DNA from: Cavenderia fasciculata
Lineage: Eukaryota > Evosea > Eumycetozoa > Acytosteliales > Cavenderiaceae
Assembly: GCF_000203815.1 (NCBI RefSeq)
Contig: NW_004457703.1
Location: 372,001 to 436,000 of the forward strand
Direction of reading: 5' to 3'
Length of the DNA: 64,000 nucleotides
A program made the position numbers and the translations under genes. Below are positions 686-27,800 of the stretch, in pieces; position 1 is the stretch's first letter; each line of letters begins with the position of its first letter. The notes under the pieces are model-generated. The model searched no databases. It saw only the letters and a list, made by a program, of their open reading frames with translations, and was not told the DNA's origin.

Positions 686-2104
686 ATGAGATTCATTTCT
701 GCCATTGCCATGTTTTTGGCCTTCATCGTGGTTGCACAAGCTTACGTGTAAGAACGAACCAAAACAAATAGATAATAATAATAGATAGACATATGACATG
801 TGACATTTGATGATCATATGAAAAATATAGATATACGATCGATTAGTTTTGGATATATCTATATCATATATATATCTTATCATATATCACACACACAACA
901 CAGTCAGTCAATATATATCTAGATTCAATAATTCTTATGATGACTAATATTTATCTTTTTATTTATTTTTTTTAATTTACTATTCCTTTTTCTTTTTAGT
1001 GTACCACTTGGATTTAATAAGGTAACTCGTCAAGCCTTGAGAAGAATTCCACAAAACCTCCAAAAGAAGTATATGTTGGCTGCCGCTGGTACCACCATTC
1101 CACTTTCTGATTTTGAGGATGCTCAATACTATGGTGCCATCACCATTGGTACTCCAGGTCAACCATTCAAGGTTGTATTCGATACTGGTTCATCCAACCT
1201 TTGGATCCCATCCAAGAAGTGCCCAATCACTGTCATTGCCTGTGACTTGCACAACAAGTACGACTCTACCAAGTCATCATCCTTTGTCCAAAACGGAACC
1301 GATTTCTCCATCCAATACGGATCTGGAGCCATGTCTGGTTTTGTCTCTGAAGACACTGTCCAAGTTGGTTCATTGTCTGTCAAGAACCAATTGTTTGCCG
1401 AAGCCACCGCCGAACCAGGTATTGCCTTTGACTTTGCCAAGTTTGACGGTATCCTCGGTCTTGCTTTCCAATCCATCTCTGTCAACAACATCCCACCCGT
1501 CTTCTACAACATGATGGATCAAGGTCTCGTTGCCCAACCACTCTTTGCTTTCTGGTTGTCCAAGACTGCCTCACCAACCAACGGTGGTGAACTCTCTTTC
1601 GGTTCAATCGATAACTCCAAGTTTACCGGTGCCATCACCTACGTCCCACTCACCAACCGTACCTACTGGGAATTCTCCATGGACGACGTCCAATATGATG
1701 GAAACTCTCTCGGATACTGTGGCAAGACTGGTTGTCGTGCCATCGCCGATTCCGGTACCTCTCTCCTCGCCGGTCCAACTGAACAAATCGAAGCCATCAA
1801 CACCAAGTTGGGTGCCGTCTCTGTCAATGGTGAAGCCATCTTCCCATCATGCAATGTCATCTCTTCACTCCCAGACGTCCAAATCGTCCTCGCCGGTACC
1901 ACCTTTGTTTTGACCCCAACCGACTACATCCTCCAAATCACTGAATTCGGTAAGACTACCTGTCTCTCTGGCTTTATGGGTATTGATATCCCAGCTCCAA
2001 TTGGTCCACTCTATATTTTAGGTGACGTTTTCATTTCCACCTATTATACAATCTTTGACTTCGGCAATTCACGTGTCGGCTTTGCACAAGCCGTCCAAGC
2101 CTAA
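686..2104 (+). CDS. ctsD: Cathepsin D-like aspartic protease (peptidase family A1)
   Basis: Two exons, 686-747 and 1000-2104, with a 252-base AT-rich GT-AG intron; the spliced frame encodes 388 residues, close to the usual length of cathepsin D. Exon 1 encodes a signal peptide (residues 1 to about 19, hydrophobic core ending VVAQA), followed by a short basic propeptide rich in Arg/Lys. Both catalytic aspartates are present: VFDTGSSNLW (Asp about 82) and AIADSGTSLL (Asp about 271). The flap Tyr is in SIQYGSGAMSG (about 127). NGT and NRT are possible N-glycosylation sites. Family A1 enzymes of this type are lysosomal or phagosomal endopeptidases active at acid pH, so a role in digesting engulfed bacteria is expected. 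Codons are strongly biased to C-ending forms, unlike the neighbouring giant genes, as is common for highly expressed dictyostelid genes. The symbol follows the Dictyostelium orthologue; orthology is inferred. Confidence 0.95.
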
Positions 2105-3931: not shown

Positions 3932-6900
3932 TTAATTTGACTTTTGACTAATAGATACCAAATTATTGTCACCCAATACTACCAAACATTGATCGGGGAA
4001 TGAATAGGTTGTTACTCTATTGGCACATGCTTTGTTCAATGTACACCAACCAAAATCAGATAATCTAAAACTACCAATATCCAAATATAATTTACTATTT
4101 TCATTTGAATTTAAATAACCATAACAATTTCCTAAAAAAAAAAAAAAAGAGAATATTAATAAATGATTTGACGATTTCTTTTTTTTTTTAATATTTGTTT
4201 TTTTATATTTGTTTCTCTTTTACCTTTTTGATAAAGTGGAATATCTCTATTAAATCTATTTTGATAGAGGGTAAATTCTGGTATTGGAGTATAGTATTGA
4301 GAAGGAATATTGATGAATTTAAGTTTCTCTGTCATATATTGATGGGATCGAAGAGAAAAGAAACCTCTTTGGTCAGAGGTTGTAGATGATACACCAATTG
4401 AAACGGCGACACCCAAGACTCCAACTTCATTTTGATCCATTATATTATTACGATTGAGATCAATGAAAACTTGACCTTGAATGAGATCTTGTAATAGTGG
4501 TGAAAATGAATGGTCAGTAAAAATGGTCCAAGAGAAAGCAGTAGTCTTTGTTTGAGTTTCAAAAGAGACGCTGACAGATGGCCTAAGACCCCAGTATGCA
4601 AGAGTGGTGGTGACGGTAGATAGTTGGCTAGTGTCTTGATCGTTAAAACATTGAGGCGTTGTTCCAGACAAGAGTAGAATATTACCAATACATTGTGTTT
4701 GAGACAAGAGGACCTTGTTTGGATGTGTTGGTGGTTCACGATAATATTTAATATATCCTGCAATTGCATCATAAACCATATAGACGAGACCATTGGTTAG
4801 GAACTGACCATTTCTGAGAGCTTGTCCTGCTACCATGTACGACCCAGGTAACATGGAATATTGTACCTTGGTTCCATCTTGGGAATATCTCGCCCAAACA
4901 ACATGACCGTTTGCATTTAGCATGAGAATCTGCCAAAAGAAACCTTGAGCGTAGCCAGTGGGAGCAACCAAGAAGTAGCGACCTCCAAGTCCAGATGTAT
5001 AGGTACACCATCCTTTTACACCTGCACTATCGACCGAGCATAAATCACCATCAGCATAGAAAACAAGTTTTGTTTGCACAGTCGGTAAATAAGTGACTTG
5101 TGTCCATTCTTGATTGTCATTTCGATCTTTAAGGACTACACCATAATTTGGATGAACAAAGAGTGTATAGAAATCATTACCAATCGTTTGAGTAACCAAT
5201 AATTGGTTTCTAGTTGGGTCGAGACAATCCAAATAACCAAGTCCTGATCCAAGTGGTCCATAGATTGCAAATTCTGTTATTGAAGCTCTAAGTCTTGCCC
5301 ATAATACTCTTCCCAATTGATCTTGTATCATTGCTCCATCGGGGTGGGTTGAGAAATATCTCATTGTTATACCTTCAAGGATGGTTTTAGTACTACTGGA
5401 TCCTCCCAAACCAGATGCAACAAGAGAGGTACTTGAAAGGGTAAGAGTTTTTAGGTTCGAGACAGAGTAACTTTCAATAACAGTTGTGGTTGCAGAGTCT
5501 ACAGATTCTATAAGGACTCCATATGTTTTGGGGATTGATTGCGACGTTTGTTTCAAAACAACATTGGTAAATCGATTGTACATTGTGATAGAGGTTAAAC
5601 GTTCATTTAGTTGCAATGTGTTGGGACCATTATTGGCATCGAGATAGGTACCTGGTATGGTTGGGACAGGATATCTAACTGGATAGGTAATGGTATAGGT
5701 GGTGTACAATTGAATGTTTCCAGGTTGCAATTTGACGACCAATTGTCTGTCAGATGCAGGCACCGTTGGGAATAAACAAATGAGAACTTCTGAACACTTG
5801 AGTTGTACTCCTTCCAAATGTAGTGACAATGATCTAGAGGATTGGAATGGATTGGCAGGTAAACGAACATAACCACCTTCAGTGGGAACAATGGTATTGA
5901 ATATATTCTTGTGGGCAACCTCTATACTGTAAATATCAGTATTTGTAGGGATTGTGAATACATTATTATTGGTTGTTCCAATGAACGGTCCAACCATAGA
6001 CGAATCACTCTTGAATATCAATACTACCACATCTGGTGAAAAGGTAATGATTTTTCTTGCACGATTATTATTCCAAGATAGTCTTGTTAAAATGTCATTT
6101 TTGTAAACACCCATTGGCAGTGTAAGAACGGTATTTTGGACATCATACAATTCTACCATATATCCAATCACTGTCGGTTTGGTTGTGATTCCAATTTGAA
6201 TGGCAGTTGATAGAGGATTGAATGAATCAATCTTGATATTGTTTGTAATTGCATATTGATGTGATGACTGGGGTGGAGCAACAATCGATATTGTTGTCAA
6301 TTGACCAGGATTTTTTGGAATTAAAATAGCAGTTGTTGAAGAAACAAGAGTTTCTAGTGAGATATCTTTACCTTGGAAAGAATAAGAGGTTCGAACCAAC
6401 ATTGGATAAACGAGTGGTGGATATAATCCATTAGAGCCTGCTCCAATAAAAAGATCTTCATAAAGATCAACCCTAATGTTGAAACCTTCTATAATAGAAA
6501 TAGTATTGTCATTGTTATTAGCTCGTATACAACTTGGAGGCATTGATACCGATGTGATTGGGTATTGACAAGTTTGACCTTCTAAACACCATCCAGCATA
6601 ATTTGAAAGGTTTATTATTCCTTCAACAAATTCAATTTGATTCGTTCCTGAAATTAAATATCCATTACATTTTAAATCTAAAAATAAATAAAAGAGTTAA
6701 TAAATATCATATTTATATTTTCTTTTCATTTTCTCTTACTGATTTTAGTCAATGGAACATTAATTGTAAAAGAGGTAAAATCAAATGATGGAGAATCTTG
6801 TTGATAAAATGAAATAATTGATTGTGGGGGAAAAGATTCACTTGTTGGACCAAAAACTTGAAGAGCCTTGATTTGATTAAAACTTTTTGTTTGCATTGTG

Positions 6901-9900
6901 TAACCAGTAGATGTACTGAAAGTAAAAGACGATGGTACATTGTAAATTTCTAATCGAACTCCTGGGATAATTTTTTCACCAATTTCATAGATTCCATTAA
7001 GATTGGTATCATGGAAAACCAAACCAGATACAGTCACCGTGGTAAGTGAAACTGGGTAGGAATTTAAAAGCCAGTCGTTGGTTTTGATGAAAATTCTTGC
7101 GTTTGGTGAGATTTCTCCTAATCTTTGAAGACCACAATACCAAGTACGACCACTAATTGTAATTAGTTGGCATGGGAACGAATCAATCTTTTCATTTACA
7201 GAAATGTAAAGTGGAGCTGAACCAAAAATATCAGGTAATGAAAATGTTTGTCCATATGGGGCAAGTACTATTCCTTGTAGGATTCCAAGTGGAGATACTG
7301 AAACAGTAGTAATGGGAGCTGCTGGGGACAAGGTAATGTCGGTTGCTTGGGTATAGGAATAGGTAACTCCTTGGTGAACGATATGAACTATAGTGTTGGG
7401 AGTAGGAACTACCCTTGTTATAGTGGTCATAGCAAGTGGGAATACACCAATTGGCAAGTTAACAGCTCCATTATTAGTGGTATCTAGTCGAGTAGAGCGA
7501 GGATATTGGTCTTTGTTGTAGTAAGCTATATTGATATCTTTTCGTTGATCGACCATCGACATTGTATTAAATTCAACATCCATTGTACTGTAGATACTTG
7601 TAAACCTGGGATTAGAGTAGGTAACCTGACCAAAGGTGATAGTGCAGACACTTTTAGGACAATAAAAAGTACAAACAGAACTACTGCAATCTTGCAAGTG
7701 TGTGGTTATTCCGTCACTTATAGTTGTCTTTGAAAGTGCACCTCTAATATTTGGTTCATTCGCATCCAATACTAAATTTAAATTTAAATCTTCATACAAA
7801 ACTATATTAATAATATTTGCTAAACAAAATTATAAAAAAAAAATATAACATTAATAATCTTAATGATCCTTTCTTTTTTTGGTCTTGTTCAATATTAAAT
7901 ATACATACTGTAAAGATAAATTTGACCTGTAGTACTTGATATGTAAATGGATGATGACCAAGGAATATTAAAAGAATAGGATACCTGACATTCTGTTGTA
8001 AAACACCAACCAAACCATCCAACATTTATATTGTTTTGAATATTTAAAGTTTCTTGATTATAGGTGACCGTTCCAGCGATTCCAACTTTTGTATACCCAC
8101 CAAAATCTACAGTTTTAATCCCGCTGTTGGCAATTAAAGAGATTGAGAATGTATCTCTAGGGAATATGATACTTGATGAAGTAGCCTTGATTTTATAGTC
8201 TCCAAGTGGAATTTCTGAAAACATATATTCAGATGTGTCAGTGACTACTGATTGAGTAAATTGACCATCTGTTGATGTCAATGTAATTGTAACTTGTGCA
8301 TTGGTGGTTTGGTCACCTTGTGAATGGATATTATTATGATCCATGTCGAGGTAGATACGTCCAACAATTGATACATCAAAATCGAACCTGCTCGATAATT
8401 GTCCGTTGATAATGACAGCAACACCCAAGGCAGATGAGACGTATGGAGAGGTACAAACAACAGTGTAGGAATCTTGGAATTCAGCCCTTACCTGATAGCT
8501 CTGTAAAGAGGTATATAAAATGACTGATGAAGAACTTGCCTCAATTCCAGGTGGAATAAAGTTGTACCCTTTGATTGATAATTGGTTTCCTGAAAACTTT
8601 ATAGCACTGGCAATTGATGGTGGTAAATAAGAAGCCAATAAAGGGTTGGAGTTCCAAGGTGTCATTGTTTTTCCATTGATTGTTCCACTTAGTTGAATAT
8701 CTTTACCAACACCAGCTGGAATGGTACATTCCATGAGAAGGTTAAATGGTTGACATTGCATCGACTCTGCAAAGTAGATAGAATCGATATCATAAATAGA
8801 TGATCCCAATGAATTACCTTCTATTCTCATTACTTGGCCACCAGAGGTATTGAATAGTTTTGGTGTGACGAAATCAACATAGGGAATATCGTATGTTACT
8901 GGCATCGTAGCTGTTTGACCACCAACATTAACGACAATCTGGCTACTTCCACTACCTTTTGGTACGATAAAGGTAATCACTTCTGGTGAGTAGTCGAGAA
9001 CTTGGCACTTTTGTTTGTTGATTGTAACATGTGGACCAATGTCACTGTTTTTCAATCCAAAATACTTTCCATACAAATAAATGGTTTGACCAACATGAAC
9101 AGTGGTCGATGGACTGACTGAATGAATAATGGGTGGTCTAAAGGTAACCAATGATGTATCAATATTGGCTTTGTTTAGATTGGTTGTATACAAAGAGTTG
9201 GTGGATTGTTGGATTGAAACGGTTCTATCAACACCAAAATCATTGGAAGCTGGTAGACAAATGATAAGATCATTTTGGATTGAAACAATTGAACAATCAC
9301 TCTTTCCAATCTTTATATTTAAATTGAGAGCATTATTACCAAAATTGTTACCTGATATGGTCATAAAGTTTGATGTTAATGTTGGGCTTTGAATTTCATT
9401 TATGATTGGTTGATTATAGTTGAAATGGAATCGAGAGAGGATTCCAATAGATGATGAAACAGTTGAAACGATATGATTGTTTCCAATACCAGGTGGAACG
9501 ATACATTTTAACATGGTCGTTGAAATAAATAGAGTTGATTGGCAAATAGTCTTTCCAATTTTAACTTTAGAGTTTGAACTAAAATGAATACCTCCAATGT
9601 CAATACTATAACCACCTACAGTAGATCCACTCAATGGTGTAACTGATGTGATAATATCTGTGGATTGACGACAAATACCACTTGACAAGTCAAAATTTGG
9701 TAATTCAAAATTGGTTCTTGTATTCTTTTGCAGGTCACAGAGCTTGTTGTTGAGAGTTGCAACTAAAAATCCTTCATCACCACCGTTTTCCATTTGTGGA
9801 ACAAAATACAATTCAAAATCTTTCCCATATTTCTTTACCAATGTTGATGGATGTGATCTAAATGAAACAAGTAACGTTGTGATTTGGACAATCGTTGATA

Positions 9901-12900
9901 ATGATGCTATAAATTTGATACCAGATTGTGATGTACGAATATCAATATCAACACCATGTTGATTTGAATTGATATTGTCTAGCATTTCAATAGCTCCAAG
10001 TGTTTGTGTATTTGAAAGAATGTCTACAAATAGAGTTTGAACACCTTGATTTTTATCTTGAATGTTGATCCATTTATCAAGAGCACCCTTTAGATCCGAG
10101 TAATAGGTGCTTTGTACCGATCCAGATCCATACAATTCTCTAGTGATACTGTCAACGTCATAGTTGTTTGGATAGTTTTCTGATAAAACTTCCAATATGT
10201 GAGAGATTGACAAAGAGGAAGACGAAGATGAGGAAGAGGATACAAAGGTACGAGAATTTGGAAAACTTGGAGGTCTTGATAAAATACCAGCATTTGGATC
10301 GGGTGCAGGTTGCAATAATTGTAATGTTTCAAATAAAGGTCTCTCACTCTTTAGAATATTCTCTTGTTTGGCATAAAACTTTTCAAAAGTATCAATTCCT
10401 TCATCTTGAATTTTTATACTTGATAGGGCCTTTAGAATCCAATCAAAAGAAAGATTCGGATTGGGATTTACGGGAGGGACTGGCATTAGGATTTTCCAAA
10501 ATGCAGATGCAATCTTTAGATAATCATCAGTTCTTTAAAAAAAACAATGATTAGTTATCATTATTATTATTATATTATTAGTTTTTTTTTTAACTTTACG
10601 ATCGTAAATTTTCCAAATCTTGACTTTGTGCTAAAAGAAAGCACGGGTTGAAACTGGTAACTGGGGGTACAAGTGCTAGAGCTTGGTTATGTAAATACCT
10701 TGTCAAGGCCAAAAGAATACCATTGATAAATGTTTTTTGAGAGTCTGTTGATTGTGATCCAGTATTGATTGATTTAAAAATGTCAAGTACTTGTGATTGT
10801 TCTTGGATGGTTCTATTATGGTAGTAGGCAAGTAATAATAGATAGGTTTGTTCTTCTTGACAAATGGGAGTTCCACCATTCAAAACAATCACTCTATTTT
10901 GAGTATCATAATGCGATATAGTGTTGGGTTGTGGTTGTTCGATGATATATTTGACTTTGGTCATACTTGGTAGTTGAGGGGCAAGTTTGGTGAATTGTTG
11001 TTGAATCAACCAACTGTAATAGATTCTTTGGTAATCATCAATACCAGAAATAGGGTACACATAGATAGGGGGACTGGATTGGGGACTGGATTGGGTTGGT
11101 GAATGGGTGATTCGGTTCGTTCGATAGTGTGATAATTGGTGACAATTATGGTTGGGAGGGTTAGGGTTACACACTGAAGCAACTGAATCGTCATTTGCAT
11201 AGTATTCGACTTTAAGTTCCTTTTTGGCTACAAGTTCCTCTGGCGGTGTAAAAAAGGGTGGTAGGATATTGGAGATTTGAGAAAAGGGAGTCTCTGCACC
11301 TGGAACACCAAATCCCCTGGGTGAAATAGTAGTACGGAGGGCATTGTATCTAATTTTTTTTGATCCATAGAAACTGTGAGTTTCGTAGGGGATCAGTTTG
11401 TAGTCTTGGAATACTCTTGGCGCTGGGGCTGGTTGGATGACTTTGTATGATACTGATTCATAAAGTGCGACGGTCACTGGGTTTTGAAAGTTGGGAGTTG
11501 GGTTCAGAAAGGTGAGAGAGGTGTCCAATTGAATAGACAATAGAACACTTGATGCTCTTTCTACATCTTCACTTCGAGTGTGAGAAATTCCATACTCTAT
11601 CATTGTATTTGACCTGGTATCAATAGGTGCAACTAGTTTATACCTAGTTACAGCTCTGTGAAATTGATCTACCAAAGTTGGAGATTGAAAACAAAATGCT
11701 CCACCACCTCTTCCAGGCTAAAAATAAAATAAAAAAATAATATTAATAAAATCGGTTGTTCAAATTATTATTTTTTGTTACTTTAATTACCTGAGAATAT
11801 TCTCTATTACTATCACCGACACAAAACCAGTCTCCAGTGGTACCACCTCTAGATGTGGGTAAAAAAGTGTAGGCAATCTTGGAGTGGTCAGCAGTGTCGA
11901 TATTCTCCCGTATACCTGGATAAATAATTTTTGAACTAACATTTATAAGATAGGGCGATGGGATCAAAGCGTGAGAATTTCTGAAAGTTTGAACAAAGAG
12001 TTGCGTACCAAGAGTACGAGCAGCATACTCCCATGTATCCACACCACCAAATGGATAGCAATAACGATATTTCCAAGTGCTTGTAGATCCTATAGAATTG
12101 TCGCATTCCTGGGGTTTAGCAGTATAAAATGTCAAGAAAAGATGATTATTTGCTGCGCTCTGGTGCAGATATTCAGTTGGGTAGTGAATTGCATTCTTTG
12201 GAAACCTTTGTGTGACGTTGCCTCTAAATGCTAAAACGTCATAAGGATGGACTGGTGGGAGTGGGGTAGTGGATAAATTGCTTGTCATTGCAGTTTTAGC
12301 AAAATATGTTCCACCTACTACCGGAAAGTTGTTTATACAATTGGGACCCATTGACAAGGCAATACAATTCTTTGAGAAAAAGAGGTAAATTAGTCATTAA
12401 AAAAAAAAACGAATTTGACATATAAAGTTTACTACAATTCTTACTTCTATATTTGTTGCACCAGCTCCATCTATATTCAACATTTTGGTAGATTGAGATT
12501 GTGGAACTTTGATTTTGTAGATGTTTGCATTGTTGATGATAATATAATCTGCAACTGTGTCGAGTTCAGCCAATCCAATAAAAGGACGACAAAAATAATG
12601 TTGTTTTTTATGTTTTTCTCCTAAAAACGCTGGTTTTTTGTCTGGAAAATCATGCTCAGTATAATCCTCTGGTGGAAAAGCTGGATTAGAGTGCCTAAAA
12701 AAAAAGAAAGATTAATTAACCGTTAATATTAAAATTATTCCATTTGAAAGATTAATTGTCATTAAAAACTTAAACTAACTTACAAGACATGAACTCCATG
12801 TATTTGATTACTATGTTCTTGCCACTAGCAGAAAATAAATAAATTGTGTGGTTAATAGTTCAAAGTCGTCCCGGTTTAATATATTCTATTTATCTCTCTC

Positions 12901-15767
12901 TGTCTCTCTCTCTTACAATTACAAATCCTTTGGTATGACCATAAGGATCACTAACTTGTCTTGCATCTTTTTTGACTCCATTTTCCGGATCTACAATAAA
13001 AAAACACATATATTAATATTGTTGTGTTTTGATATTTTTAAACAAATAAATATTAATAGTTACCGAATTTCCCTATTTGGTCGTTGTAAAATATATATTT
13101 TGAACTAACATGCTTGGATTGTTCAAGTGTCTTGTACAGAGAATTATGTTTGATATCGGTATGAGTATTCAATGGAAAAAAATGTCTTAGATTCTGGTCC
13201 TCTTCGTCGGCATAAAAATAATCGTCTTTTGTTGTTGCCAATCTATAGTTGAACCACCATTTCTTTGGCAAATAGTCATAGTGTTGGGGATCAATCGATG
13301 AACCGATAGATTGACCCAAACAAGAGACTATATGGGTGATGTAGGAGATATCAGATTGAATGACACCATCAATTGTAATTTGATGGGATTGACCGACGGG
13401 GTTTGGTTGAAGACCGGGAGGTTTGCCACAAATGATATCGGTAGTGCCTAAACGGGTGCATGTTTTGAGTTGTTTTCCACCAATAGTAACTGATGATAGG
13501 GATTGGGCTGTAAATCCAGTACCTCTAATTGTGATGTCTGATCTATCAGTAATCTGTGATAATCTTGGTTTGATCTCTGTTGCCACAGGTCCAACGATAG
13601 TAATACCGGCGCCGGTAGAAAGATCGAATTTGAATTCTATTTTTCCATCAACAATCAAAAGTATTGTCTTTGCATTGGTAGATGAAACATATTGGGAGCA
13701 CACGACCAGAGTACTTGAAGAAGCTGTGCATAGTCCAAGATCAATATCATCCAACATAAACTTTGTTGTGTAACTTGGTCCAAGATCTAAATTAATTCCT
13801 TGCATTTCAAATCCACTTCTTTTATATTCAATTTGGGTAATTTCTGGTACTATAAAAAATAAAATAAAAATAAAAAGAAATAAATAAATATTATCTTTTT
13901 TGAAACTACAATATTGTACTTACCTGTATATCTATAAATTTGATTTAAAAGTGGATAGTCATGATTATCAATTCTAATTGTACAAGAAGCATCTTGATAT
14001 TTAGTGATTGATGGGATTGTGTCTAAAGAGTAAGATGGAACATCAAACTCGAAAGTATTTAATTGATTTGGTAATACATTTCCTTTGACCACAATAGTAT
14101 CACGTGCAGGGGTAACAAGTACAAGCTCAACTTTAAATGCTTGGAATGTTTCTCCAACATTGGTTTTCAAATCAATTTTAACTTTGTTTGAATTTAAAAT
14201 AAATGATTGAAATGGTGTAGTTGGGTCAATTGTTATAACTGGGTCTATAGAAAAAAAACAATAAAAAAAACAATAAATATTTTGATTTACATTGGTAATA
14301 TGTATCTATCTCATCTATCTATCTAATCTACTTACTTTTAAATTGAAATTGACCAACATCAATTGTAGGTCCATTTCTACCAACTCTCAATTTAATTTGA
14401 CAGGATGCTCCAGCCGTAAAACCAGCTGAAGAGACATCAAAAGATAAAACATTGGAGATGACCCTTAAATATGGTGGAGAATATGTAGCCGATCCACCTG
14501 TTACTTTGATAACGGAAAATCGAGGTATAATACCAGTAAATCCTATTCTCATGGTGGTAGTAACTGGAACATTATTACTATCATAAAGAGCAAAAGATGG
14601 TACCGATAGAATACGCAAATTTTCAATTTCTATAAATGATTAAAAAAATAGAGTAAATATAAATTAATAATTTAAATAATAATCTGAATAATAATTTACC
14701 AAAAGCATTTAGTAATTGAATAATTTGTTTTCCAATAGTTAATAAAAGAGTGGCAGATGGTTTTGCAGCAGGGAATTGAGTAGTCATACATGTAATATCC
14801 GTTGAAATGGGAGTTGGGGGTTGAAGATTACATACGACTCCATCAATGGTTAACATAGTAGGTTGGTCAAAAAAGGTACCAGTGATGGTGACATACTCTG
14901 AACCAGTAATGATCAACTTTCTTGGTAGAGTAGTTGCAATTTGTGAAGCTAAAAAAAAAAAAAGAAAAAAAAGTATAAATAATAAATAAATAAATCAAGT
15001 GATTGATATTACATACAATAAGTGAGAAAAGTAAATGGTACTGATATTCTAGATGTTGACGTTCCATATTTATATTCAAGTGATAGTTGAACAGAGGTAC
15101 CTGGAGTAATGTTGGGAATGATTGGAAGTGTACAAGTAACCAAGCCATTATTTGACAACACTGGGTTTCCACAATCATATTGATTACCAGCTTGACCGTC
15201 AATAAAAACAATTTGTAACAAGTTATTAATTGGTGAATTGGTATTAACATTGGCAGTAAAAGTTATTAATTGAGTTTGACCAGAATAACCTTGGGTTGGA
15301 TTCATACTCGTTAGGATTAAATCTATAGAAAAAAATAAAAATTATTAATTAATTAATAATCTTTGAATATTTGAAATATATATTTATATTTATATATTTA
15401 CCTTGAACATAAATAGAAGAGATAGAATAGGTATAATCGGGAGAAGAGGACAAGAGAAGATTGGGTTGGTTTGTGGATTCGAAAAGGGGTTGATATTTGA
15501 TTCTAGCTTCTAGAGTTGTTGGGGTATTGGGTGTTGATGCCAAAGTGCATGTAATTGAGGTATCTGTAATGTCTATGGTGGGATTTAGAACAGTACAAGG
15601 TATCTCATGCATTCTATTAAAGTACATAAAGGACACTTCTATGACATTACTAAAACTAGAGATGGGAATGAGACCATCACCATAAATATCAATCACCACA
15701 TCTTGTAAACCAGTTAAAAGGTATGATGTTGAGAATCCTGAAATATATGGAGACTCTAAAAAAAAAA

Positions 15768-15807
<40 letters not shown>

Positions 15808-16201
15808 AAATAAAATAAATAAACATACTTTTAATCAAAATTTCTACTGGAGTATAGTTTTCTACAACAATCCAGTATCTAAGAGTTGTGCTGGATGGAG
15901 TAGGACGATTAGATCTAGTAAAACTAAAGACATGAATCATATTATCACTTGAACTGCGTTCTTGGGTCATTGGATCATCTACATTTGAGCCACTTGTACG
16001 AAGGAAAACAGCGGGTTTTGCGACAGCAGTGTTCAACGTGATCTTGACCACACCATCTCCATAGAATTCTAGTGGTTCGATATTGAATGATTCTACTTTG
16101 AGAACTAAAGTGGATAGTAGCAATAGACAAGATAATAGAATCATAACAAAGAAATGATCTTTGCCATAATAATAATAATCTTTTTTTCGCTTTCTCTCCA
16201 T
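3932..16201 (-). CDS. A1: giant secreted TIG/DNase II protein, C-terminally shortened copy
   Basis: Sixteen exons: 15829-16201, 15402-15755, 15017-15322, 14700-14948, 14336-14629, 13924-14244, 13064-13849, 12917-12990, 12784-12824, 12445-12694, 11791-12369, 10600-11717, 7909-10532, 6740-7819, 4224-6677, 3932-4131. All introns are GT-AG and phases close, giving 3700 residues. Order: signal peptide or anchor (core at about 20-34), TIG/IPT domains in exons 2-7, DNase II (about 809-1240), a middle domain of unknown function, further TIG domains (about 1870-2260), an SdrD/Cna-B-like module with loop YLDMDHNN, two more in exon 14, then Gly-Trp-Cys modules and a bulb-lectin-like region, another SdrD-like module, and a short last exon. 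That last exon matches A2 and A3 for about 60 residues through VSISQK and then ends at once, so about 800 C-terminal residues are missing. No C-terminal membrane span is seen; the product should be secreted. Family and splicing are well supported; function beyond the DNase II fold is inference. Confidence 0.85.
11625..13322 (-). other. DNase II domain of A1 (spread over exons 7-12)
   Basis: About 430 residues align by eye from end to end with animal DNase II: a start at CLGQSI, WWFNYRL, the YADEEDQNL region, YIFYND, GHTKGFVIW, HGVHVLHSNPAFPP, YFCRPF, TWEYAARTLGTQL, ADHSK, FCVGDSNR and GRGGGAFC. Members of this family have a phospholipase D-like active site made from two His-x-Lys motifs. Here these are His913/Lys915 and His1178/Lys1180, both intact. 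Two very small exons (74 and 41 bases) encode the first motif loop and the strand after it. Predicted activity is acid, metal-independent cleavage of double-stranded DNA; activity is inferred from motif conservation. Confidence 0.88.
15766..15822. repeat. AAAT microsatellite in A1 intron 1
   Basis: A run of roughly a dozen AAAT units with one or two interruptions lies inside the first intron of A1 next to its donor site. A2 and A3 have a short version only, so it expanded in this copy. Confidence 0.9.
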
Positions 16202-16754: not shown

Positions 16755-19700
16755 ATGAAAATCATCAGCAGCTTCACACTTTTATTATTATCGGTGTGTT
16801 TGCTTGCTTTTTTATCAGAGACTCTCGCACAACGTATGTTCAGTGAACTTCACCCACCCACTCACAATCATTATTTTTACTTTGCTTATTTATTTACTTT
16901 ACTTTATTTATTTAATTTTATTTATTTATATGTATAATCATTAGATTGTTATAAAGATGCAAATAATGTTAGAAATTGGTGGGTAGTTAGAAAACTACCA
17001 GGTAGTAATCATTATATCTACTTTGATGATACAGGTGCTATTGAAGGTGGTTCAGTGTACAGTGAAAGATTATCCTTTCTAGTATCTAGATTAGGTGATC
17101 AAGGTACTGAATACTTTGCATTTAATAATAAACCTTATTACAATGACTTTGTTGTTCAAGATGATACTCCTCCAAGTTATGGAGAGATTGCTCCACAAGT
17201 CGTAAAACAACTAATTCAGAGGACTGAATCGCTCAAATCCCTTTCCAAGGGTATCGTATCGTACAGTACATCAAGTAGATCAGGTTACTATTTAAAGCAT
17301 TCGTTACAAGGATTCCCAGTGCCTATTAGACCAACTACAGAATCACCATCATCGTCAGCATCGGTCAAGACACCACTCACACATCCAAATGAATGGTTAC
17401 CAACAGACTTTGTAACCGATCCCAAGGAGATAGATACTACTAGTCTTTCGTACGGACACATCTTTATCTGTCAATCGTTTGATAATATCGATACAAGTCA
17501 AATTGCTAAAGCATTGGATGCAGCCGATCCATACATTTATGCTACCAACATTGTAGATAGTGCCTCTAGATCGTTGCTTTCACCTTTATTTATCGAAAAT
17601 AGAGTACCTGCAAGCACGTCCACTTCATCTGACGGTAGAATTAAATCATCTTCAAGTATTACATCTCTTTGGCAATCAACAGCTTCAACTTTAAGTTTAA
17701 GTTTAACTTTACCTTTAAAATATGTATGTAATCATTCATTTCATTTCATTTGTTTATTTGTTTTTTAATATATTATTTTTTTTTATTTATTTTCTTTTTG
17801 ATTTTAGAAAATGAATGGAATTAAAAATATTATTGAAGTAAAGATTCCAAATAGATTTTCTGAGGTGTTTGGTATTCCAGTTGGTTCATCACAATTCTCA
17901 TCAAATCGAGAGATGAATAGTATTGCATTCTCGGATTCCAATATTTTGGAAAGTAGTACACTTTGTGTTGGTGATTTTGGTTATGCAACCACTCAACCAG
18001 GTACCATTGTATGTATTGCACAAGTTCCAGCCACATTCTCAAGTTTATGCGTATGTGTACAAACAAGTTTGTTGTTTCGGCTGATGGCCAAGAACAGGTG
18101 GTTACATCACACACCACATTCAACGGGCCTTTGTTGATTGACACGAGCCGTGTTGAGAATACTAAACCAACACCACCAAGTTACACAATACAATACTACC
18201 AATCATTGTCGAGTGTTGGCAATCTCTTGCCACATACTGCCTACTCTCATCTTCCAACTGACATGCTGTCTGTTGGTTGTAATAGACAGTGTCTCAATAG
18301 TTTTATGGAAGGTATGACGCAGAGTACTGATGAAAATGGGTTTATTGAATACTCTGAATCACGTCCTCAAACAATCCAAGTTCACCTCACTTCAACAATG
18401 GCAGGTTCGGTCCCAGTCGCAGTCGTCACACAAGACCAATCCCATAAGATCATTCCATTTAACCAGTACAGGGGTGGTCTCTTCCCAAGCCAAGATACTG
18501 ATAACAATATTGTACTTGTCTATCGTACACTCCAAATGCTTGCCGATATTGTCGACCAACAAATCATTCGAGAAGGATCAATCACTACTCTGGATGACTT
18601 GTCAGTTGTCTTGTCTATTGACCAATCCTCCTCTAAAAATGTTGGTATACTCAACGGTCTAACCAACACACCAATCAACCTTGACTCTCCATGCGTGGAA
18701 GAGGTATTACGTGCATTCTCCAATGCACTCATCAAATCAGCATCCAACAATCAACTATACGATCTTGGATCTGCAACACTATTCCCTACACCATCCACCA
18801 TGCATTCGGAATCATCAAATAATTACGTCGCATTTTATCGTGGTCTTGTTAATGCCATGTCGGTTACTCTTGGTCAACTTGTATTCCCCACCTCATCACA
18901 GTTGTTAGATAGTTGTACTGGTATGCCTGTTGATATTGAAAACTATCATAACGACCGTGAAGTATCACCATCCAAAGGAATCTACAACGAGGGTTGGGTA
19001 ACTGCCTATCTCTATGATTTGATCGATTTTAATGATGACTCTGACCAAAGTACTCTTCCAACGACCCAACAACACCGTCGTGCCCTTTTCGATGCCAATT
19101 CCGATCATCCAGTACCACTCTATGCCATCGTCGAAGCTATCCAAAAGGTTGTACAAGTTTCAACTCAACCAAGTGTCCTTGACTTTACCAATTCATTGGT
19201 CGCCGTCCTAGATGCCAGAAAACTTGGACAAGAGATTGAATCTATTGATACTATCATGCAGTACAATAACATGTTTTATGTATGTCCTTTTGTTGCCAAT
19301 GGTCCTCCCTTGCCAAATGACAGAGACCCAACATTACAAGAATTCTTTATGTCCAAGTTGGTTGGTGATGCCGATATTCATGCATTACCATTGCAACAAA
19401 TAGAAACTATCCTTTCATTGTGGGCACAAGACGACAACACACCAATCATGAAAAATCAAGCTCTTCAATATCTTTATTCGAGTGCGTTTAAAGCAATGAT
19501 TGGTGATAGTAAGCTCGTAAATATCTTGAAACCTTTTGACCCATCAATGTGTCAATTTGGTTCGTTGGATCGTCCCATCACACCACTTGGTATTCAACTC
19601 CTAACCAAGTATTTGGGAATGGTGAGAGATATTAGAGTCATCTCTGAACGACATCTTGGTGGTGTATTAACGGTTCGAACCTACAAAGATATTTCAGTTG

Positions 19701-22700
19701 TCTTGTTTAAAGATAAAATATGCTCGTTTACGGTAACCAACAACATTCATCAGGCCATCAATCAATGTCCATGCGGCCCATTGGTCGAATCAATTACACC
19801 TCTTAGTGGTCCATTAACTCGAATCACTCAATTAACTATAACTGGTCGTAGTTTGGAGAATTCCTACTTTAAAGTAGCAGAGGTTGATTGCATATCAAAA
19901 TCAAGTTCAATCGATCCTGGTCTAGAAACATTGATTTGCGAGTTTCCAACATTTGCCGGTACTCACACCATAACCTACGGTAGAAACGGTGGAGCTAATC
20001 TTAATTATAACCCAGAGACTACGTTTTCATTCACTGTCGATTCACCTAAAATCAATCGTATTACACCCAATTCAAACGTCCCAACAAATTATGCCATGAT
20101 AACTATTTATGGAATCAACTTTTTCCCACCACCTTTAACGGGTGATGTAATCAATCGTGATGGTATCCAATTATTTATCAATGAAGATGAATTCCTAATT
20201 GAGAGAATGGATCATTTCGAATCAGAAAATATAATTTATTTTAAAACTAATAATGTTGGTACAACAAAGTATGTAAAAAAAACAAACAAAATGAATATTT
20301 AATTAAATTATTAATTTTTTATTTTCCTTTTTTAGTTTAATTTCAATTATGGTTAAAGGAAAAGAATCAAATATGATAAATATTAGAATGTCAGCACCTA
20401 CAATTTCATCAATTAATATTTTACCATTGACAAGTTTACGTACCAATCCTGTAAATATTAAAACACCCATTACTGTCACAGGAACAAACTTTGGTCTAAA
20501 TGAAGAAGAAATCACTGCATTTGTTGGTCCAAATAAATGTGATAGTATAGAGGTTATAGATCATAACTCGTTCATTTGTAATGCACCAACTGGAAGAGGT
20601 ATGGGTCACAAAGTAAAGGTTCGAATCGGTGACCAAGAGGTGACTTTTGCCTCTAAAACACTCGATTACGCCCAACCTTCAATCTACCAAGTTATCGTCA
20701 ATGGAACCTATCCAACTGGACCAACCAAATTTTTCTGGATTGTCGGAACTGATTTTGGTACAACTCAGTCAGATGAATCTGAAACCAATGTTTATTTGAA
20801 GCATCAAGATCCAAAACTCAACCAACTTCATACTCAATCAGCTTATTGCAAAAATGCGCAAGAGTTGTGTCAAGATCTCCCTTTTATTTATTATAATTCT
20901 TTTAGTAGAGAACCTCAAGACGGCGAGGAGGAGGTTTGGGTACCATCGAAAGATATCGTACAAGCCAACAAAGATGAACCAAATTTGGAATGTCTCATTT
21001 GTTATTTTGGAAGTGCAGTTGGAGCTGGATGGGAGATTGAAAGTGTCGAGTTTGATGGAAGAAAATCAGTTTTTAATCAATCTGCAAAAACATTGGGACT
21101 CCTCCAAGAACTCAAATATTCTCTTCCATTGGTCGACGAGGTACAATTAAAAGACGATGTCTTGTTGCCAACGAGAGGTGGTACAAGAATCAGTCTCATT
21201 TCCGAAGAGGGTGTATTCCCGCCAAACGAAATGCTCAACACCGACACCGACCCAGATACCGGTTCCCCTACTCCAACACAACGTTTTGAAATTGACTCTA
21301 CCTATAGTAATATTAAAATTGGTGATTTTCAAGTCGATTATAATAACATTGATTGGATAGACTCTAAAACTATTGACGCAACTTTACCACCTGGATATGG
21401 TATCAATTTAATTATTAGATTATATGTTGGTAAACAATATGCAGGGAGTAAAATATTTAGTTATGATCGTATGTAGATAGATAGATAAAAGGATAAAAAA
21501 AAAAACATATTTATTTATTATATTAATTTAATTATTTTTTTTATTTAGCACCTGAATTAATAGAAAAATATTATAAAGGACCAAATATTGGAGGAAATAG
21601 AATTATTATTTTAGGAAATAATTTCTTACCCAATCAATTTTCTTCACAGTTTTCAACACCAACCCCAACAATGACAGTAAAAATCAATTCAAAGCCATGT
21701 CTTTCGGTTGAATGGATCGATTATGACAATGTACGTTGTGTGGTACCTCCTGGAGAGGGATCGGGATTGCATATTAATGTGGTTGTTGGTGGACAAGAAA
21801 CTAGAATTGTCAACGATTATTACTCTTATTATCGCAACGAACCAGAACCTCCAAGCATCTGGACCACGATTTTCATCACAGTTACAGTGACCACAACCGT
21901 CTCTGTTACTGGTGGGCATAGATTCTTGACCTACGGAGGTAACGCTGCTAATTATAACGGTTACCAACGAATAGAACAAGAAGATTTGAATAATGGTGAA
22001 AGGAGATGGATTGAACTAACGAGATTTGGATTTGAACGTCACGCTTCTGACTTGTTGCTCACCACACTTGCCGCCGATGGACCACCTGAACCTGGAACTA
22101 TCGTTCTCAGCTTTGTCATTCCACCTGGTGGTGGTCGAGTTGGGCACAGATACGTTGATGGTCTATTCCGTAGTCCCCTCAACACATTGGTCTCTTATAA
22201 ACCACCCGTCCTGACCAACGCCAATTTCATGCAATTGGGGTACCTCTTACGACTACAAGGTTCCGACTTGGGTCTTCCTCAATTCCGGGTAGACATTTCC
22301 ATTGAAATTGGTACTACCAAGTGTTCTCTTCACAGCATTTCAAGTGATGCAACCACCGCTACGTGTTACAATTACAAGACCATTTGTAAAAAAGATTTGA
22401 CGATTACCATCACCTACATGAGACAAACATCCAACACATTCCCTATGCCAAACAACCCAAGTTGTTCCTCTAACCAAGTTGATATTCCCAGACCAAAACT
22501 CCCAACACTTGTACTGATCGCCATGATCAGTGCTGCCGCCGCTGCTGGTGCTGCATGTTTTATTTTTGCACCCCAATGTTTTGCCGCAGCCACTGGTATT
22601 TCAGGTTTGACAAAGTTAACATCAACAGCCTTTTCCATTCTTTTTGGTGTCTTTACAGTTTCACAATTAACTACTCTCAATTTACTCAAGGTCCTCACAC

Positions 22701-24734
22701 AAGAAGAGTTTATTGTTAATAGGTCAAAGGTAAAAGTTGTAGTTACAAGTGAAAAAGTCGTTAAAACTTATTATTCTGGTGATACCATTCCAGCCCTCTC
22801 TGATCCATTTGCCTCTATTGAAATTTATGATTTAGGTATGAAACAAAATAGAAAAAATAATAATTATTTAGAATATAAAATATATAAATATTAATATTTT
22901 AAATTTATTTTTTATAGGATTATTTTCAACGGTACCATTAATACCACAAGAAGGTATGCCAATTTATTTGGAATCAATTTATTATACAGTTCCACAATAT
23001 TATTTAGATGGAATGGAAATGACATGTTCAAATGTTGAAGATATTACAACTACTCCATCGACAGTGATGACTCAATGTTTGGTACCACCATATGTTGGAG
23101 GAGACCTTACCAAAGAGGTTGTAGTAAAATTGGGTGGAGTTGCAATGGCAGAGACCTATTCAATTACCTATGAAGGAGAATCAAGACCTCTACCCTATGT
23201 TGATTATTTCAAAGGAAGAGTTTATTATGATCAAAACAACAACAATATTTTCAACTCTGCTATTGATCGTCCAGCTGAAAAGATTATTATTCAAATCAAA
23301 CAAGATTCAACAGTGGTAGCTCAAACAATGACCAATATGGATGGTTATTATTCATTCCCCAATGTCGATGTTACTTCCATGACACCCAAACCAACTCTCT
23401 ATGTATTGCCAAGCCAACAACAAACAGAACACCATGTAACCCAACCTCGTCCATTTATCATCCCAAGAAACAACCTCCGAGTAAGGGCAACTTTTTCAGG
23501 AACCGATATAGCTTTACTTGTAGAGTTACAAGATTATGGGTGTCAAGGAACTACAACTACACCACCATCAGACGGCATTGCACCAAACGAGAATGTTGAA
23601 TTACAATACGGTCTTTACCAATATACTTATGGTACTGATGGTTTGATTCATCCAGAAATGACATTTGGTTCGCAATTCCAACATTGCACGATGACATTAT
23701 TTGATAATTATTTCTTAATTGGTTATAGTATGTAGTATAAAAACAAAATAGATAAATAGATATATATTAATATTATTTTTATTTTTTAGAACATAGATAT
23801 GATTATCAATTTTATTTTGATGCAAACTCAAATGGTAAGATGGATACATTTGAAACAGAATTAGAGTATTATATTCCAGGAGCATTAATCAAAGCAATAT
23901 CATCAAATCAACCATTTGAGAGAGATATAGAGGTTGACAAGGCCACAAGAAAGATGTGGGTTGATTTTGCAGCAACTGACAATCAGTTATACTTTTCCAA
24001 CAACAATATGCCCAACTACACCATTGCTCTCAATGGATACGGTTTATTCATCTCAAATCCAACAGTTCCGACTCTTTTAACCATCCCAATGTTTATGGAA
24101 AAAACACTTGTTTCCATGTTTGGCAAAAAAAGTAATGGATTAGTTACAGACTTTACTCTATCATTGCCATTTGGTAGATTCACATCTACCTACTTTGACA
24201 ATATGAGACCAATATTTTCATTTAATCAAGCCGTCATAGCACTTGATTCAAATGGACCCATTATTGTTAATGTTTTTAAAGAAAGTGATGGTTCCTTGGT
24301 TCGATCTTATCCAACAGAGGCATCAGGTATTCAAGAATTTACGATTCCTTTGGTTGGTCATACTATTGAAGTTATTGATAAATGTATGTATAGAAATATG
24401 CAAACTTTAGTTTATTTAAAAAAAATAAAATAAAAACTAACCTTTTAAATTTATTTTAGCAATATTTGATAATGCGGTATTTGCACCAGTTCAAGGAGTG
24501 TTCAGACTTGAAATTATAGATAGATTCAATATACATACATATGTCAGATATAAAATGGATGATCATGATTTACAATGCCAACGATTAGCCAATGCACTAA
24601 CCGAATGCTACGGTTTGATTGAAGAGTTTCGAGATGTTGCCATCACGAAATCAATAATAGTTCAACTAGGCAGTAGCGTTCGTTTCTCACATGAATATTT
24701 ATTTTTGGTCCCTCCTAATCCAAAGTTAAATTAA
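16755..24734 (+). CDS. B1: giant secreted DNase II-like (catalytic motifs lost)/TIG protein, with one apparent frameshift
   Basis: Eight exons: 16755-16833, 16945-17723, 17808-20268, 20336-21468, 21549-22835, 22918-23727, 23790-24383, 24460-24734. Signal peptide MKIISSFTLLLLSVCLLAF is followed by a DNase II-like domain without the catalytic His residues, a middle domain containing YNEGWVTAYLYDLID, TIG domains (ESITPLSGP, NRITPNSN and others), an internal hydrophobic hairpin in exon 5, an SdrD-like module (VYYDQNNNNIF) in exon 6, a Ca-type loop FDANSNGKMD in exon 7 and a short last exon. Relative to B2 one A is missing at about 18033 (GCCACATT against GCCAACATT), which shifts the frame inside exon 3; every other exon phase agrees with B2. 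Either B1 is newly disabled after about residue 360 or the base was lost in sequencing or assembly. Without the shift the gene would be about 2472 residues. Confidence 0.82.
16947..18080 (+). other. DNase II-like pseudoenzyme domain of B1
   Basis: The fold is recognised from NNVRNWWVVRKLPG, YIYFDD, YFAFNNKPYYND, SKGIVSYS, YYLKHSLQGFPVP, YGHIFICQSF and LCVGDFG, in the order of DNase II. The first His-x-Lys motif reads Leu-Ser-Lys (SLSKG where active members have GHTKG). The region expected to hold the second has no His at all (NSIAFSDSNILES). The RGGG motif before the last Cys is also lost. DNA binding might persist; cleavage by the known mechanism should not. The frameshift near 18033 falls at the end of this domain. 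Confidence 0.75.
22500..22690 (+). other. Internal hydrophobic hairpin of B1
   Basis: Exon 5 encodes two adjacent hydrophobic stretches (TLVLIAMISAAAAAGAACF and a second around AFSILFGVFTVSQL) separated by a short Cys/Pro-containing turn, followed by ordinary soluble sequence. They are long enough for two membrane spans, which would leave both flanks on the same side. B2 has them at 45892-46075 with different residues but the same hydrophobicity. Confidence 0.55.
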
Positions 24735-24859
24735 AAAATAAAAACAAAAGTATATAGAATAGATGAAAGCGATTGTCAAAAATAATCAATCAAAAATTCA
24801 TGTTACTAATTAATTATTATTATTATTTTATTTATTATTATTATTTTTGTTTTTGTTTT
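24735..24859. other. Very short convergent spacer between B1 and A2
   Basis: Only 125 AT-rich bases lie between the stop codons of the converging genes B1 and A2. 3' untranslated regions must be very short or overlap as antisense. Part of this sequence (about 24765-24859) recurs before the A3 stop codon (about 48840-48948), so it belongs to the repeated unit. Confidence 0.7.
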
Positions 24860-27800
24860 TTAACAAGAATCACACCAAGAAAGTTCTAAATTATTATTTG
24901 GATCAAAGGTTGAACGACACTTTTGTTGATTAGAGTATGATGGATAAAGGTCTGTCACTGGGAAAGCACATGAATCTTGATAACACCAACCAAAGAGTGA
25001 AAGGTCGACAGTTCCCATTTGAATCTGCATTGTTTCTCCTCCCTCTGATCCGAGTTGTAGAGAACAACGAGTATCTGAGCTTTTTGAAAAGGCAAAGAAC
25101 ATCTTGTTAAAATCAGATACCGATGGGACTGGGAATGATGATATTGGCATTACAATATTTGAAGGGATATTGGAAAATACAAATCTTGATGCTTGGGGTT
25201 GAGAATATATATCAAACAAGAACTCTCCCAATTCGTTGGTCACAGTTTGTTGACCGAGATAGGTAACAGTGATACCAGACAAACCAACATATTGTTGTGC
25301 ACTTTGGACAATCACAACCTTTCCACCAATGGTTGTTTTTCTCTTGGCCAAACGTTCTTGAGGATAGACTTCTGCTGTTTGTCCTTGTAGAATGGTTACA
25401 GGGGACATGTCGTCGTAGGTACTGCCAAATTTGTATGCTGCTTGTATACCATACAACTTGGCAGTTGTTGGTACGAGAGAAGGTAGAGATTGGGTATTTC
25501 CACTTACAAGTGACGTTCCTGACAAGTAACAACCATCATGACCAGATTGAATACTTAAAAGGGTAGTAGACGCCCCTACAGAAGACGAGCCCCATTCACC
25601 AATGTAATATTTGACAAGCGATTGTTGTGATGATTGCTTTTTAAAAAGTATTAATGAGTAGCCATTGGATAGGATCTCGCCTGGTCGAAGGATTTGTCCT
25701 GGAACAAGATAACTTCCAGGCAAGAAGAATTGAGTGACCGAGGGGGCCATTGCATAACGACCCCAAATGATGTTTCCATACATATCGGTAAACAAAAGAG
25801 CCCACTCCAAACCGCTAAAAGTACCCTTGGGTGCTAAAAACAAGTATCGACCACGGAGTATAGGATTAATGTTGGATGGGAAAGATGGCAATGCACACTT
25901 GGGTGTAACAATAGAACCTTTTAGACAAAGATTATTTGGTGTGATTTCTAAAGCAACCGATGAGTCAGAAAAGATCGTTGAAGTTTCATAGGACCATACC
26001 TCTTGATTTAGCGACTCGACTGACAATCTCAGCCTCGTGGGCAGCCCTGAACTTGTGAGTTTTAGAAATTGGAAGCCGTTGCTAATAAAATTGCCTGTTT
26101 TTAGGGTGGGATTGGATTGGACATCGAGATAGGTAATACCGGTTGCCAAAAATGATGTTGTATAGAGATTAAAAGAGTATGGTCTTGTGTATGCCCATGT
26201 AAAGTTGCTTGTAGGCAGTCCAGTGGAATGATAAAAGATGCCTTGTGGATAAAGTGACAATACCTTGTTATTACTATTGGTGGCTGGTCTATTAAATTGA
26301 CCACACTGTAATTGCAAACCGGTACCCTTTAAACAAAGGCCAGTGTTGGTGACGACAGCGGTGTATGGCGCAATTAAGCTGTCTGGTAAAATAGTAGAGG
26401 AATTTAGAATATTTCCAGCACCGTCAAAGATTGATACTACCAACTTGTCGGTCACGGAAATCTCAGAATAACCAACTCGACTATCAACTGCTGATCTGAG
26501 TGTAGCAAGTGGTCCAATTGATTGACCTTGTTCTAGATAAACAGTGGGAGGACTTGGTGTTGGGTCATTATATGTGATGGTAAAGGTTCTATTGAGAATG
26601 ACATTGTTTACTTGGATAAACAATAATTGATTTCCGATACCCACAGGTGGAACAAAACATAATAATCGTTCACTACAAGCGATAGATGTTGAGAAATTTC
26701 CAATGTAGAGTGATTTATAAACACCCAATGGGAATGGATCGGTAAATTGATAATATTCTCCTTCTGTCTTGGTTGATATAGAGAACAACGTGTCGGGTGG
26801 TGCAATTTGAATTTGGGAGATTCCAAGTTTGGTAGGAATTGGAATAGAGGTACCATTTCTACTTGTGAGTGTAATAGGTTGTCCTGATGTTCCAAATAGG
26901 TACACTTGCATTTGAGTGTTGGATGTAGTAAAAGAGATGGGTCGGTTTATCCATCCCAACATTCCAATAAATGTGTTGGTGTAGTGACCAGGTGGAAGGA
27001 TCAGCTCTGCAGATTGGTTTACATGTCCAAAGGTAACAAGATTTGTCAGATCTTGATTTCTGCTGGTCTTGATCATTGGAACATTAAAAATAACATTATT
27101 TGTTAAATTGGCAACCAAATTAATGTTATTCAAAAGTGACATGGTTTCAGGATTCGTCGTGACTTGTATTCTAATACCTTGTGAACTACCCCAAACATAG
27201 GAATTGGTGTTTACGTTTGGAGTCAATTCGAGAGGTGATGAAAATCCAGCGACATATATTTGTACCTTTGAAGATAACAAATTGGGATTATAGGCAGACA
27301 GTGGAAGGTTGCCAGTTGGTGATGATATCGATTCAATGTAGAGATTGATTATAAATGTCTTTTGACTAATTGATACAAAGTTATTTTCACTAAACATAAC
27401 CAAACATTGGTCTGGAAATGAATAGGTTGTAATTCTATTGGCACATGCTTTGTTCAATGTACACCAACCAAAATCAGATAATCTAAAAGTACCAACATCC
27501 AAATATAATTTACTATTATCATTTGAATTTAAATAACCATAACAATTTCCTAAAGAACAAATAAATAAAAGAATATTAATAAATGATTTCTTTTCTTTCA
27601 TTTTTATATTTGTTTCTCTTTTACCTTTTTGATAAAGTGGAATATCTCTATTAAATCTAATTTGGTAGAGAGTCAATTCTGGAATTGGAGTATAGTATTG
27701 AGAAGGAATATTGATGAATTTAAGTTTCTCTGTCATCGATTGATGAGAACGAAGAGAAAAGAAACCTTTGGCGTCAGAGGTTGTAGATGATACACCAATC

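Follow-up and report, generated by a model that had tools for sequence, protein, structure and literature searches.

Introduction

Deoxyribonuclease II (DNase II) is usually a stand-alone enzyme, either lysosomal or secreted. We describe an array of five genes in a 64,000-nucleotide stretch of the Cavenderia fasciculata genome (contig NW_004457703.1, positions 372,001 to 436,000; hereafter the window, in whose numbering all coordinates are given), three of which (A1, A2, and A3) encode a DNase II domain deep within predicted proteins of several thousand residues, and two of which (B1 and B2) encode a DNase II-like stretch that lacks the His-x-Lys (HxK) motifs. As far as their sequences tell, we think it rather probable, if by no means certain, that A1 to A3 are giant secreted adhesive proteins with a complete and potentially active DNase II inside them, and that the motif-less B proteins are their partners.

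Several described systems resemble parts of this locus (papers cited by accession are drawn on here in excerpt). The DNase II family itself (PF03265; solved structures 5i3e/5unb, labelled Putative deoxyribonuclease-2) shares with the A proteins both halves of the enzyme and both HxK motifs, together with the putative third catalytic residues and a CVGDxNR..RGGG block. The 15 bacterial relatives found are open reading frames (ORFs) of 263–413 codons, free of any scaffold (one, L002, runs off the end of its contig); in the A proteins, by contrast, the domain lies at residues ~800–1237 of proteins of ~3700–4500 residues and carries an insert of ~115 residues. Because these ORFs were found via one conserved core, differently built bacterial proteins may be missed. 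The DNase II-like family of Trichinella is likewise expanded, with most members lacking the motif and one member active, but neither a TIG scaffold nor divergent gene pairs are mentioned in the excerpted text, which does mention DNase II sequences from D. fasciculatum, lacking a signal peptide, and from D. discoideum (PMC4148230).

In Dictyostelium, tgrB and tgrC are paired, diverging genes with a common promoter, present as one to nine pairs per genome, and tgrB is shortened in 13 of 25 loci (PMC12324515). The tgrB1/tgrC1 (Tiger) genes have TIG domains, divergent pairs, local expansion, and truncated members in common with the present locus; however, their proteins are transmembrane, which the A proteins are not clearly, and the excerpts mention no nuclease domain (PMC12324515, PMC3188802). 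The layout of our array resembles that of the tgrB/tgrC allorecognition locus. Colossin A of Dictyostelium is also a large structural protein with bacterial-type repeat domains, but it is described as consisting of hundreds of Cna_B repeats (PMC3188802), whereas the present locus shows only a small number of SdrD_B matches, all of them below cut-off. A fusion of DNase II with TIG domains appears in no title or abstract opening among the matches listed by full-text literature searches, a scope outside which eukaryote protein databases lie; an annotated but undiscussed relative of this architecture may well exist.

Results

The DNase II domain of the A proteins

The DNase II domain of A1 spans 11634..13340 on the minus strand (residues 803–1237), as placed by PF03265, a bacterial DNase II profile, and the exon model; a first-pass annotation, made from the sequence alone, had put it at 11625–13322, ~20 bases off the spliced model. 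The domains of A2 (35005..36746, minus strand, residues 783–1227) and A3 (59033..60711, minus strand, residues 789–1227) were placed by PF03265. This family matches all three proteins far above its cut-off, at expectation values (E) of 3e-38 for A1, 5e-35 for A2, and 2e-38 for A3 and in two stretches each, so that the full-length enzyme proposed for A1 to A3 is recovered with both halves in 3/3. An independent profile, built from the 15 bacterial ORFs and searched against only four proteins (A1, A2, A3, and B2), matches A1 at 1e-19, A2 at 7e-21, and A3 at 9e-17 (E for a four-protein search); in each A protein it finds two separate stretches, which hold the motifs GHTKG and DH[S/A]K (3/3). The same profile matched 0/200 shuffled whole proteins (50 each of A1, A2, A3, and B2), and a chance match to the motifs is rejected on this basis.

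Both HxK motifs are intact in A1, A2, and A3, as the first-pass annotation had stated. GHTKG (12926..12940, minus strand, in A1) is common to the three proteins; the second motif reads DHSK in A1 (11878..11889, minus strand) and DHAK in A2 and A3. The H and K columns of the first and the D, H, and K columns of the second are invariant in an alignment of nine sequences, the three A domains and six bacterial proteins. The catalytic triad of DNase II consists of H, K, and H or N in each half (PMC9208542). Altogether 34 columns of the alignment are invariant, including (in the numbering of the A1 segment) G110, H111, K113, G114, H132, S133, D375, H376, and K378, and further along C397, D400, N402, and R403. 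The third catalytic residue of each half we take to be the histidine of LHS and the asparagine of GDxN. With the third residues placed in this way, the six expected catalytic positions (H, K, H and H, K, N) are kept 6/6 in A1 to A3 (3/3) and in 8/8 aligned bacterial sequences; B2 keeps 2/6. B1 was left out of this comparison on account of a frame break in the stretch, and its two pieces were checked apart. The bacterial sequences entered the analyses in different numbers: 8/15 in the table of catalytic positions, 6/15 in the alignment of invariant columns, and 15/15 in the profile search. Over the DNase II domain, A2 shares 68% and A3 63% of residues with A1.

Against the solved DNase II structures 5i3e/5unb, the A4 profile, six of whose nine rows are bacterial, scores 4e-129; A1 alone matches at 1e-4, over 32 residues. 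By homology through 5i3e, both motifs would contribute to a single active site within one pseudodimer. Searches of viral contigs confirmed 0/45 candidate stretches with the A alignment and 0/33 with a 32-residue core; of two scans of genome contigs, the first confirmed 0/73 candidate stretches and the second 15/40. We conclude that A1 to A3 do carry a two-half DNase II domain with both motifs, to all appearance a complete one.

Exon structure and translation

The spliced genes come from our own prediction script, which was trained on the long open frames of the window and favors or demands an open frame; exon borders outside the nuclease are approximate. The window is eukaryotic in character, with short AT-rich introns, and its combination of TIG, SdrD-like, and DNase II parts would suit a dictyostelid or another amoebozoan. 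In A1 the domain is borne by exons 7–12 (13849–13064, 12990–12917, 12824–12784, 12694–12445, 12369–11791, and 11717–10600, minus strand). The same 16-exon structure was obtained in three separate runs for A1, A2, and A3. Exon lengths are equal modulo 3 among the three genes in 16/16 exons, compared with 8/30 comparisons for intron lengths, and the differences of three to fifteen bases found within nuclease exons 10 and 11 keep this equality. Exons 8–11 of A1 total 944 bases, and a transcript that skipped them would be out of frame. In A2, a weak TIG-like stretch and the beginning of the DNase II match share the open frame of exon 7; at the other end of the domain, exon 12 continues into the scaffold, again in one frame. 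This continuity, with the shared 16-exon structure, leads us to reject the idea that separate genes were joined by the model. Since three paralogues keep this 16-exon frame open, the domain is likely to be translated, probably as part of the giant protein.

Upstream of the nuclease, A exons 2–6 (e.g., window 39072–37328) each encode a single-exon N-terminal module of 246–354 bases flanked by phase-1 introns, the pattern that exon shuffling would be expected to leave.

Scaffold and leader

By hydropathy, a hydrophobic leader opens all five gene models (A1–A3, B1, and B2), and after the leader there is no segment above 2.0 in A1 to A3. A row of TIG domains had been thought to precede the nuclease; this is not upheld as a firm statement. 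Of A2 exons 2–7, located ahead of the nuclease or at its beginning, three of six have TIG matches, all below the Pfam cut-off (E of 0.027, 0.0035, and 0.16), and A2 exon 1 has no family match. Clear TIG domains are found on the C-terminal side of the nuclease, in exon 13, at 1e-26 in A2, 2e-33 in A1, and 3e-26 in A3. Exon 13 of A2 (31318..33927, minus strand, 3′ of the nuclease) also matches SdrD_B at 3e-5, below cut-off. The first-pass annotation had credited the A proteins with SdrD-like modules; weak SdrD_B matches do recur, in exons 13, 14, and 15 of each of A1, A2, and A3, with the match below cut-off in 9/9 exons; in exon 15 it is outscored by MetallophosN, itself below cut-off.

Bulb-lectin-like modules had also been proposed, and bulb lectin is absent from the Pfam matches of the A proteins. 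Exon 15 of A2 (27626..30067, minus strand) holds a weak lectin-like stretch (exon residues ~490–580) in addition to an SdrD-like one. Compared with solved structures, 8/9 of its matches (E up to 1) are to lectins or to the related sweet proteins neoculin and curculin; those of lectin type cover residues 489–582 at E of 0.05–0.6. A profile of exon 15 from the three paralogues gives 9/10 structure matches of lectin type (best 0.009), and the exon's NCBIfam match to a lectin-like bacteriocin family (2e-4) falls far short of the cut-off; A2 exon 16 has no lectin-type match to solved structures. These matches lend the bulb-lectin idea weak but uniform support. AlphaFold models of A exon 13 (three paralogues) and B exon 3 (two) had predicted local distance difference test scores of 28 and 27, respectively; they were uninformative and were not used.

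Selection and exchange between copies

Ratios of nonsynonymous to synonymous substitution (dN/dS) were obtained as simple pairwise counts without a tree, with bootstrap ranges. For A1-A2, A1-A3, and A2-A3, respectively, they are 0.76, 0.95, and 0.58 over the whole nuclease; 0.80, 0.85, and 0.54 in its first half; 1.01, 1.44, and 0.77 in the ~115-residue insert; and 0.44, 0.64, and 0.40 in the second half. The N-terminal part of the protein gives 0.81, 0.96, and 0.71, and exon 13 gives 0.54, 0.49, and 0.34; on these values the nuclease is less constrained than exon 13. The bootstrap range lies below 1 for the whole domain and the first half in A2-A3, and for the second half in A1-A2 and A2-A3; in the insert all three ranges include 1. 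The fast change can reflect either weak constraint or diversifying selection. Between A2 and A3, synonymous divergence (dS) is 0–0.02 in the first 300 alignment columns and 0.41 in the nuclease, a mosaic that suggests gene conversion or other exchange between copies.

The divergent partners B1 and B2

The first-pass annotation had pictured a single odd enzyme; the buried DNase II in that picture is real, but the divergent genes B1 and B2 with their motif-less stretch had been overlooked. B1 begins with the leader followed by a DNase II-like stretch (window 16755–18050), and in B2 the corresponding stretch (40361..41490, plus strand, the end of its second half being approximate) comes directly after the leader. 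PF03265 matches B2 at 5e-17 over profile positions 1–187 of 326, that is, the first half, and B1 exon 2 alone at 1e-13. The second half of B2 has no Pfam match, and it scores ~0, with filters off, when A and bacterial sequences make up the profile; the part of it that does align covers the second-motif region and the CVGD block. The bacterial DNase II profile gives no match to B2. A full two-half DNase II in B is rejected as a firm statement, the second half being only a weak match.

No HxK motif occurs in residues 30–400 of B2 or in the two pieces of B1. At the aligned motif positions B2 reads LxK and MxS; a four-sequence alignment differs in this and still shows no HxK. As judged from two translations and the DNA of B1, the frame of B1 is broken with respect to that of B2 near 18050, where the DNase II-like stretch ends; the break is either a recent loss or a sequencing error. 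Long open frames continue after this break. In the exon of the DNase II-like stretch, dN/dS between B1 and B2 is 0.36 (0.18–0.65); the stretch therefore seems to be maintained for some non-cutting function.

B2 has TIG domains in three exons (5e-8, 2e-16, and 1e-9) and an SdrD-like stretch below cut-off. In both B proteins a single hydrophobic segment past the leader exceeds 2.0 (2.41 at residue 1768 of B1, 3.07 at residue 1810 of B2). No match emerged when the profiles of A exon 13 and B exon 3 were compared, and the comparison of whole A with whole B gave nothing above 14% probability save a one-column match. A blastp comparison of A2 with B2 without composition correction gave four weak stretches (E of 5e-6 to 4e-4); because the first and third of these stand in the same order in both proteins, common descent of the A and B scaffolds is suggested, but no more than that. 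The A and B genes form a tandem array of divergent pairs, each of a likely enzyme and a likely pseudo-enzyme.

Layout of the array

The A genes lie on the minus strand and the B genes on the plus strand. A1 (3932..16201) is modeled with 16 exons and 3675 codons including the stop and has a short C-terminus; A2 (24860..39540) has 16 exons and 4501 codons, and A3 (48949..63554) has 16 exons and 4464 codons, stops included, close to the 3700–4506 residues first proposed. B1 (16755..24734) is the divergent partner of A1, and B2 (40171..48181; 2464 codons including the stop) that of A2; the start-to-start distances on opposite strands are 554 bases for A1/B1 and 631 bases for A2/B2. Comparison of the window with itself reveals tandem copies of A plus B, with A gene starts spaced 23.3 and 24.0 kb apart. 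At 3938, the stop of A1 and the left edge of the tandem array, A1 ceases to be homologous to A2 and A3, and for this reason A1 is the shorter and lacks ~800 residues. The upstream regions of A2 and A3 resemble each other as far as 63914 on the A3 side, so a third B gene is expected outside the window; by extrapolation from A1 and A2, A3 would also be half of a divergent pair. The intron between exons 13 and 14 was modeled as 137 bases in A1, 82 in A2, and 133 in A3, and some A1 and A3 residues there were therefore probably missed.

In the models, each B gene meets the next A gene tail to tail (24734–24860, 125 bases, and 48181–48949, 767 bases). An aspartyl protease gene (window 1037–2104; PF00026, 3e-110) adjoins the array.

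Discussion

We propose that the A protein is secreted, given its hydrophobic leader with no later segment above 2.0, and that its DNase II is built into an adhesive rod whose modules are Ig-like, SdrD-like, and lectin-like. The suggestion of a nuclease displayed on an adhesive scaffold made in the first-pass annotation thus fits the leader, the TIG domains, and the weak SdrD and lectin parts, and is kept here as a proposal. Such a rod could hold the enzyme at a surface, be it that of the cell's own matrix, of prey bacteria, or of a biofilm. The two HxK motifs would form a single metal-independent active site that cuts DNA, in the manner of an acid DNase with two phospholipase-D-like halves. 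DNase II enzymes act without metal and at acid pH (PMC4148230), so full activity is likelier in an acid food vacuole than in neutral surroundings, and cutting should be most effective in acid places of that kind. In D. discoideum, bacteria induce sentinel cells to release DNA traps (PMC5758549); such traps are another possible substrate. The B product would probably be a binding or anchoring partner of A. The proposal rests on A and on the absence of the motifs from B, and is therefore unaffected by the weak second half of B.

Several observations weigh against this proposal. Folding could be disturbed by the ~115-residue insert between the halves of the A enzyme, which its bacterial counterparts do not have. 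The nuclease is under no more than modest constraint: for the whole domain and the first half the bootstrap ranges of dN/dS include 1 in two of the three pairs, and in the second half that of A1-A3 (0.38–1.10) does so too. The equality of exon lengths modulo 3 is not fully independent evidence, because the splice script demands an open frame. The SdrD, lectin, and N-terminal TIG parts of the scaffold are below family cut-offs, and the array may be partly decaying, given the broken frame of B1 and the missing C-terminus of A1.

Some of these points would suit an A domain that has inherited the DNase II fold and motifs but serves to bind DNA or a partner with little or no catalysis, in a protein that is an adhesin or matrix component first. 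The high dN/dS and large insert are in line with this, the motif-less stretch retained under constraint in B1 and B2 suggests that a non-catalytic role is present at the locus, and Trichinella has 125 DNase II-like genes, most of them without the motif (PMC4148230). We nevertheless hold a binding-only A domain to be unlikely, as the six catalytic positions are kept in all three A proteins despite their divergence from A1 (68% identity in A2, 63% in A3); three A sequences alone would be weak evidence, but invariance across six bacterial sequences adds weight. The likelihood of an artefact, in which a splice predictor has fused separate TIG-like, DNase II, and scaffold genes, is very slight: its sites do come from a script that favors open frames, but three separate runs arrived at one 16-exon structure, and exons 7 (in A2) and 12 span the two borders of the domain.

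The array might instead be a recognition locus like tgrB/tgrC, whose TIG pairs diversify by duplication and exchange and in which the nuclease is a variable recognition surface or an effector. The tandem divergent pairs A1/B1 and A2/B2, with A genes 23.3 and 24.0 kb apart, the A2-A3 mosaic of dS (0–0.02 against 0.41 in the nuclease), the insert with its dN/dS of 0.77–1.44, and the hydrophobic segments present in B1 and B2 and absent from A all accord with it. We consider it quite improbable, because every bootstrap range for the insert includes 1, A has no clear transmembrane segment whereas Tiger proteins are transmembrane (PMC3188802), and profile comparison finds no firm homology of the A and B scaffolds. 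More speculative still is a diversifying recognition system made up of these pairs, in which a membrane-bound pseudo-nuclease B, with its own TIG scaffold, recognizes, anchors, or restrains the matching extracellular nuclease A on its TIG scaffold, so that only non-self cells, traps, or prey would set off DNA cutting.

If our proposal of a DNase II carried by secreted adhesive proteins is true, a DNA-cutting enzyme would have been turned into a tethered extracellular tool, and the locus would offer a testable pair of enzyme and pseudo-enzyme in an allorecognition-type layout.

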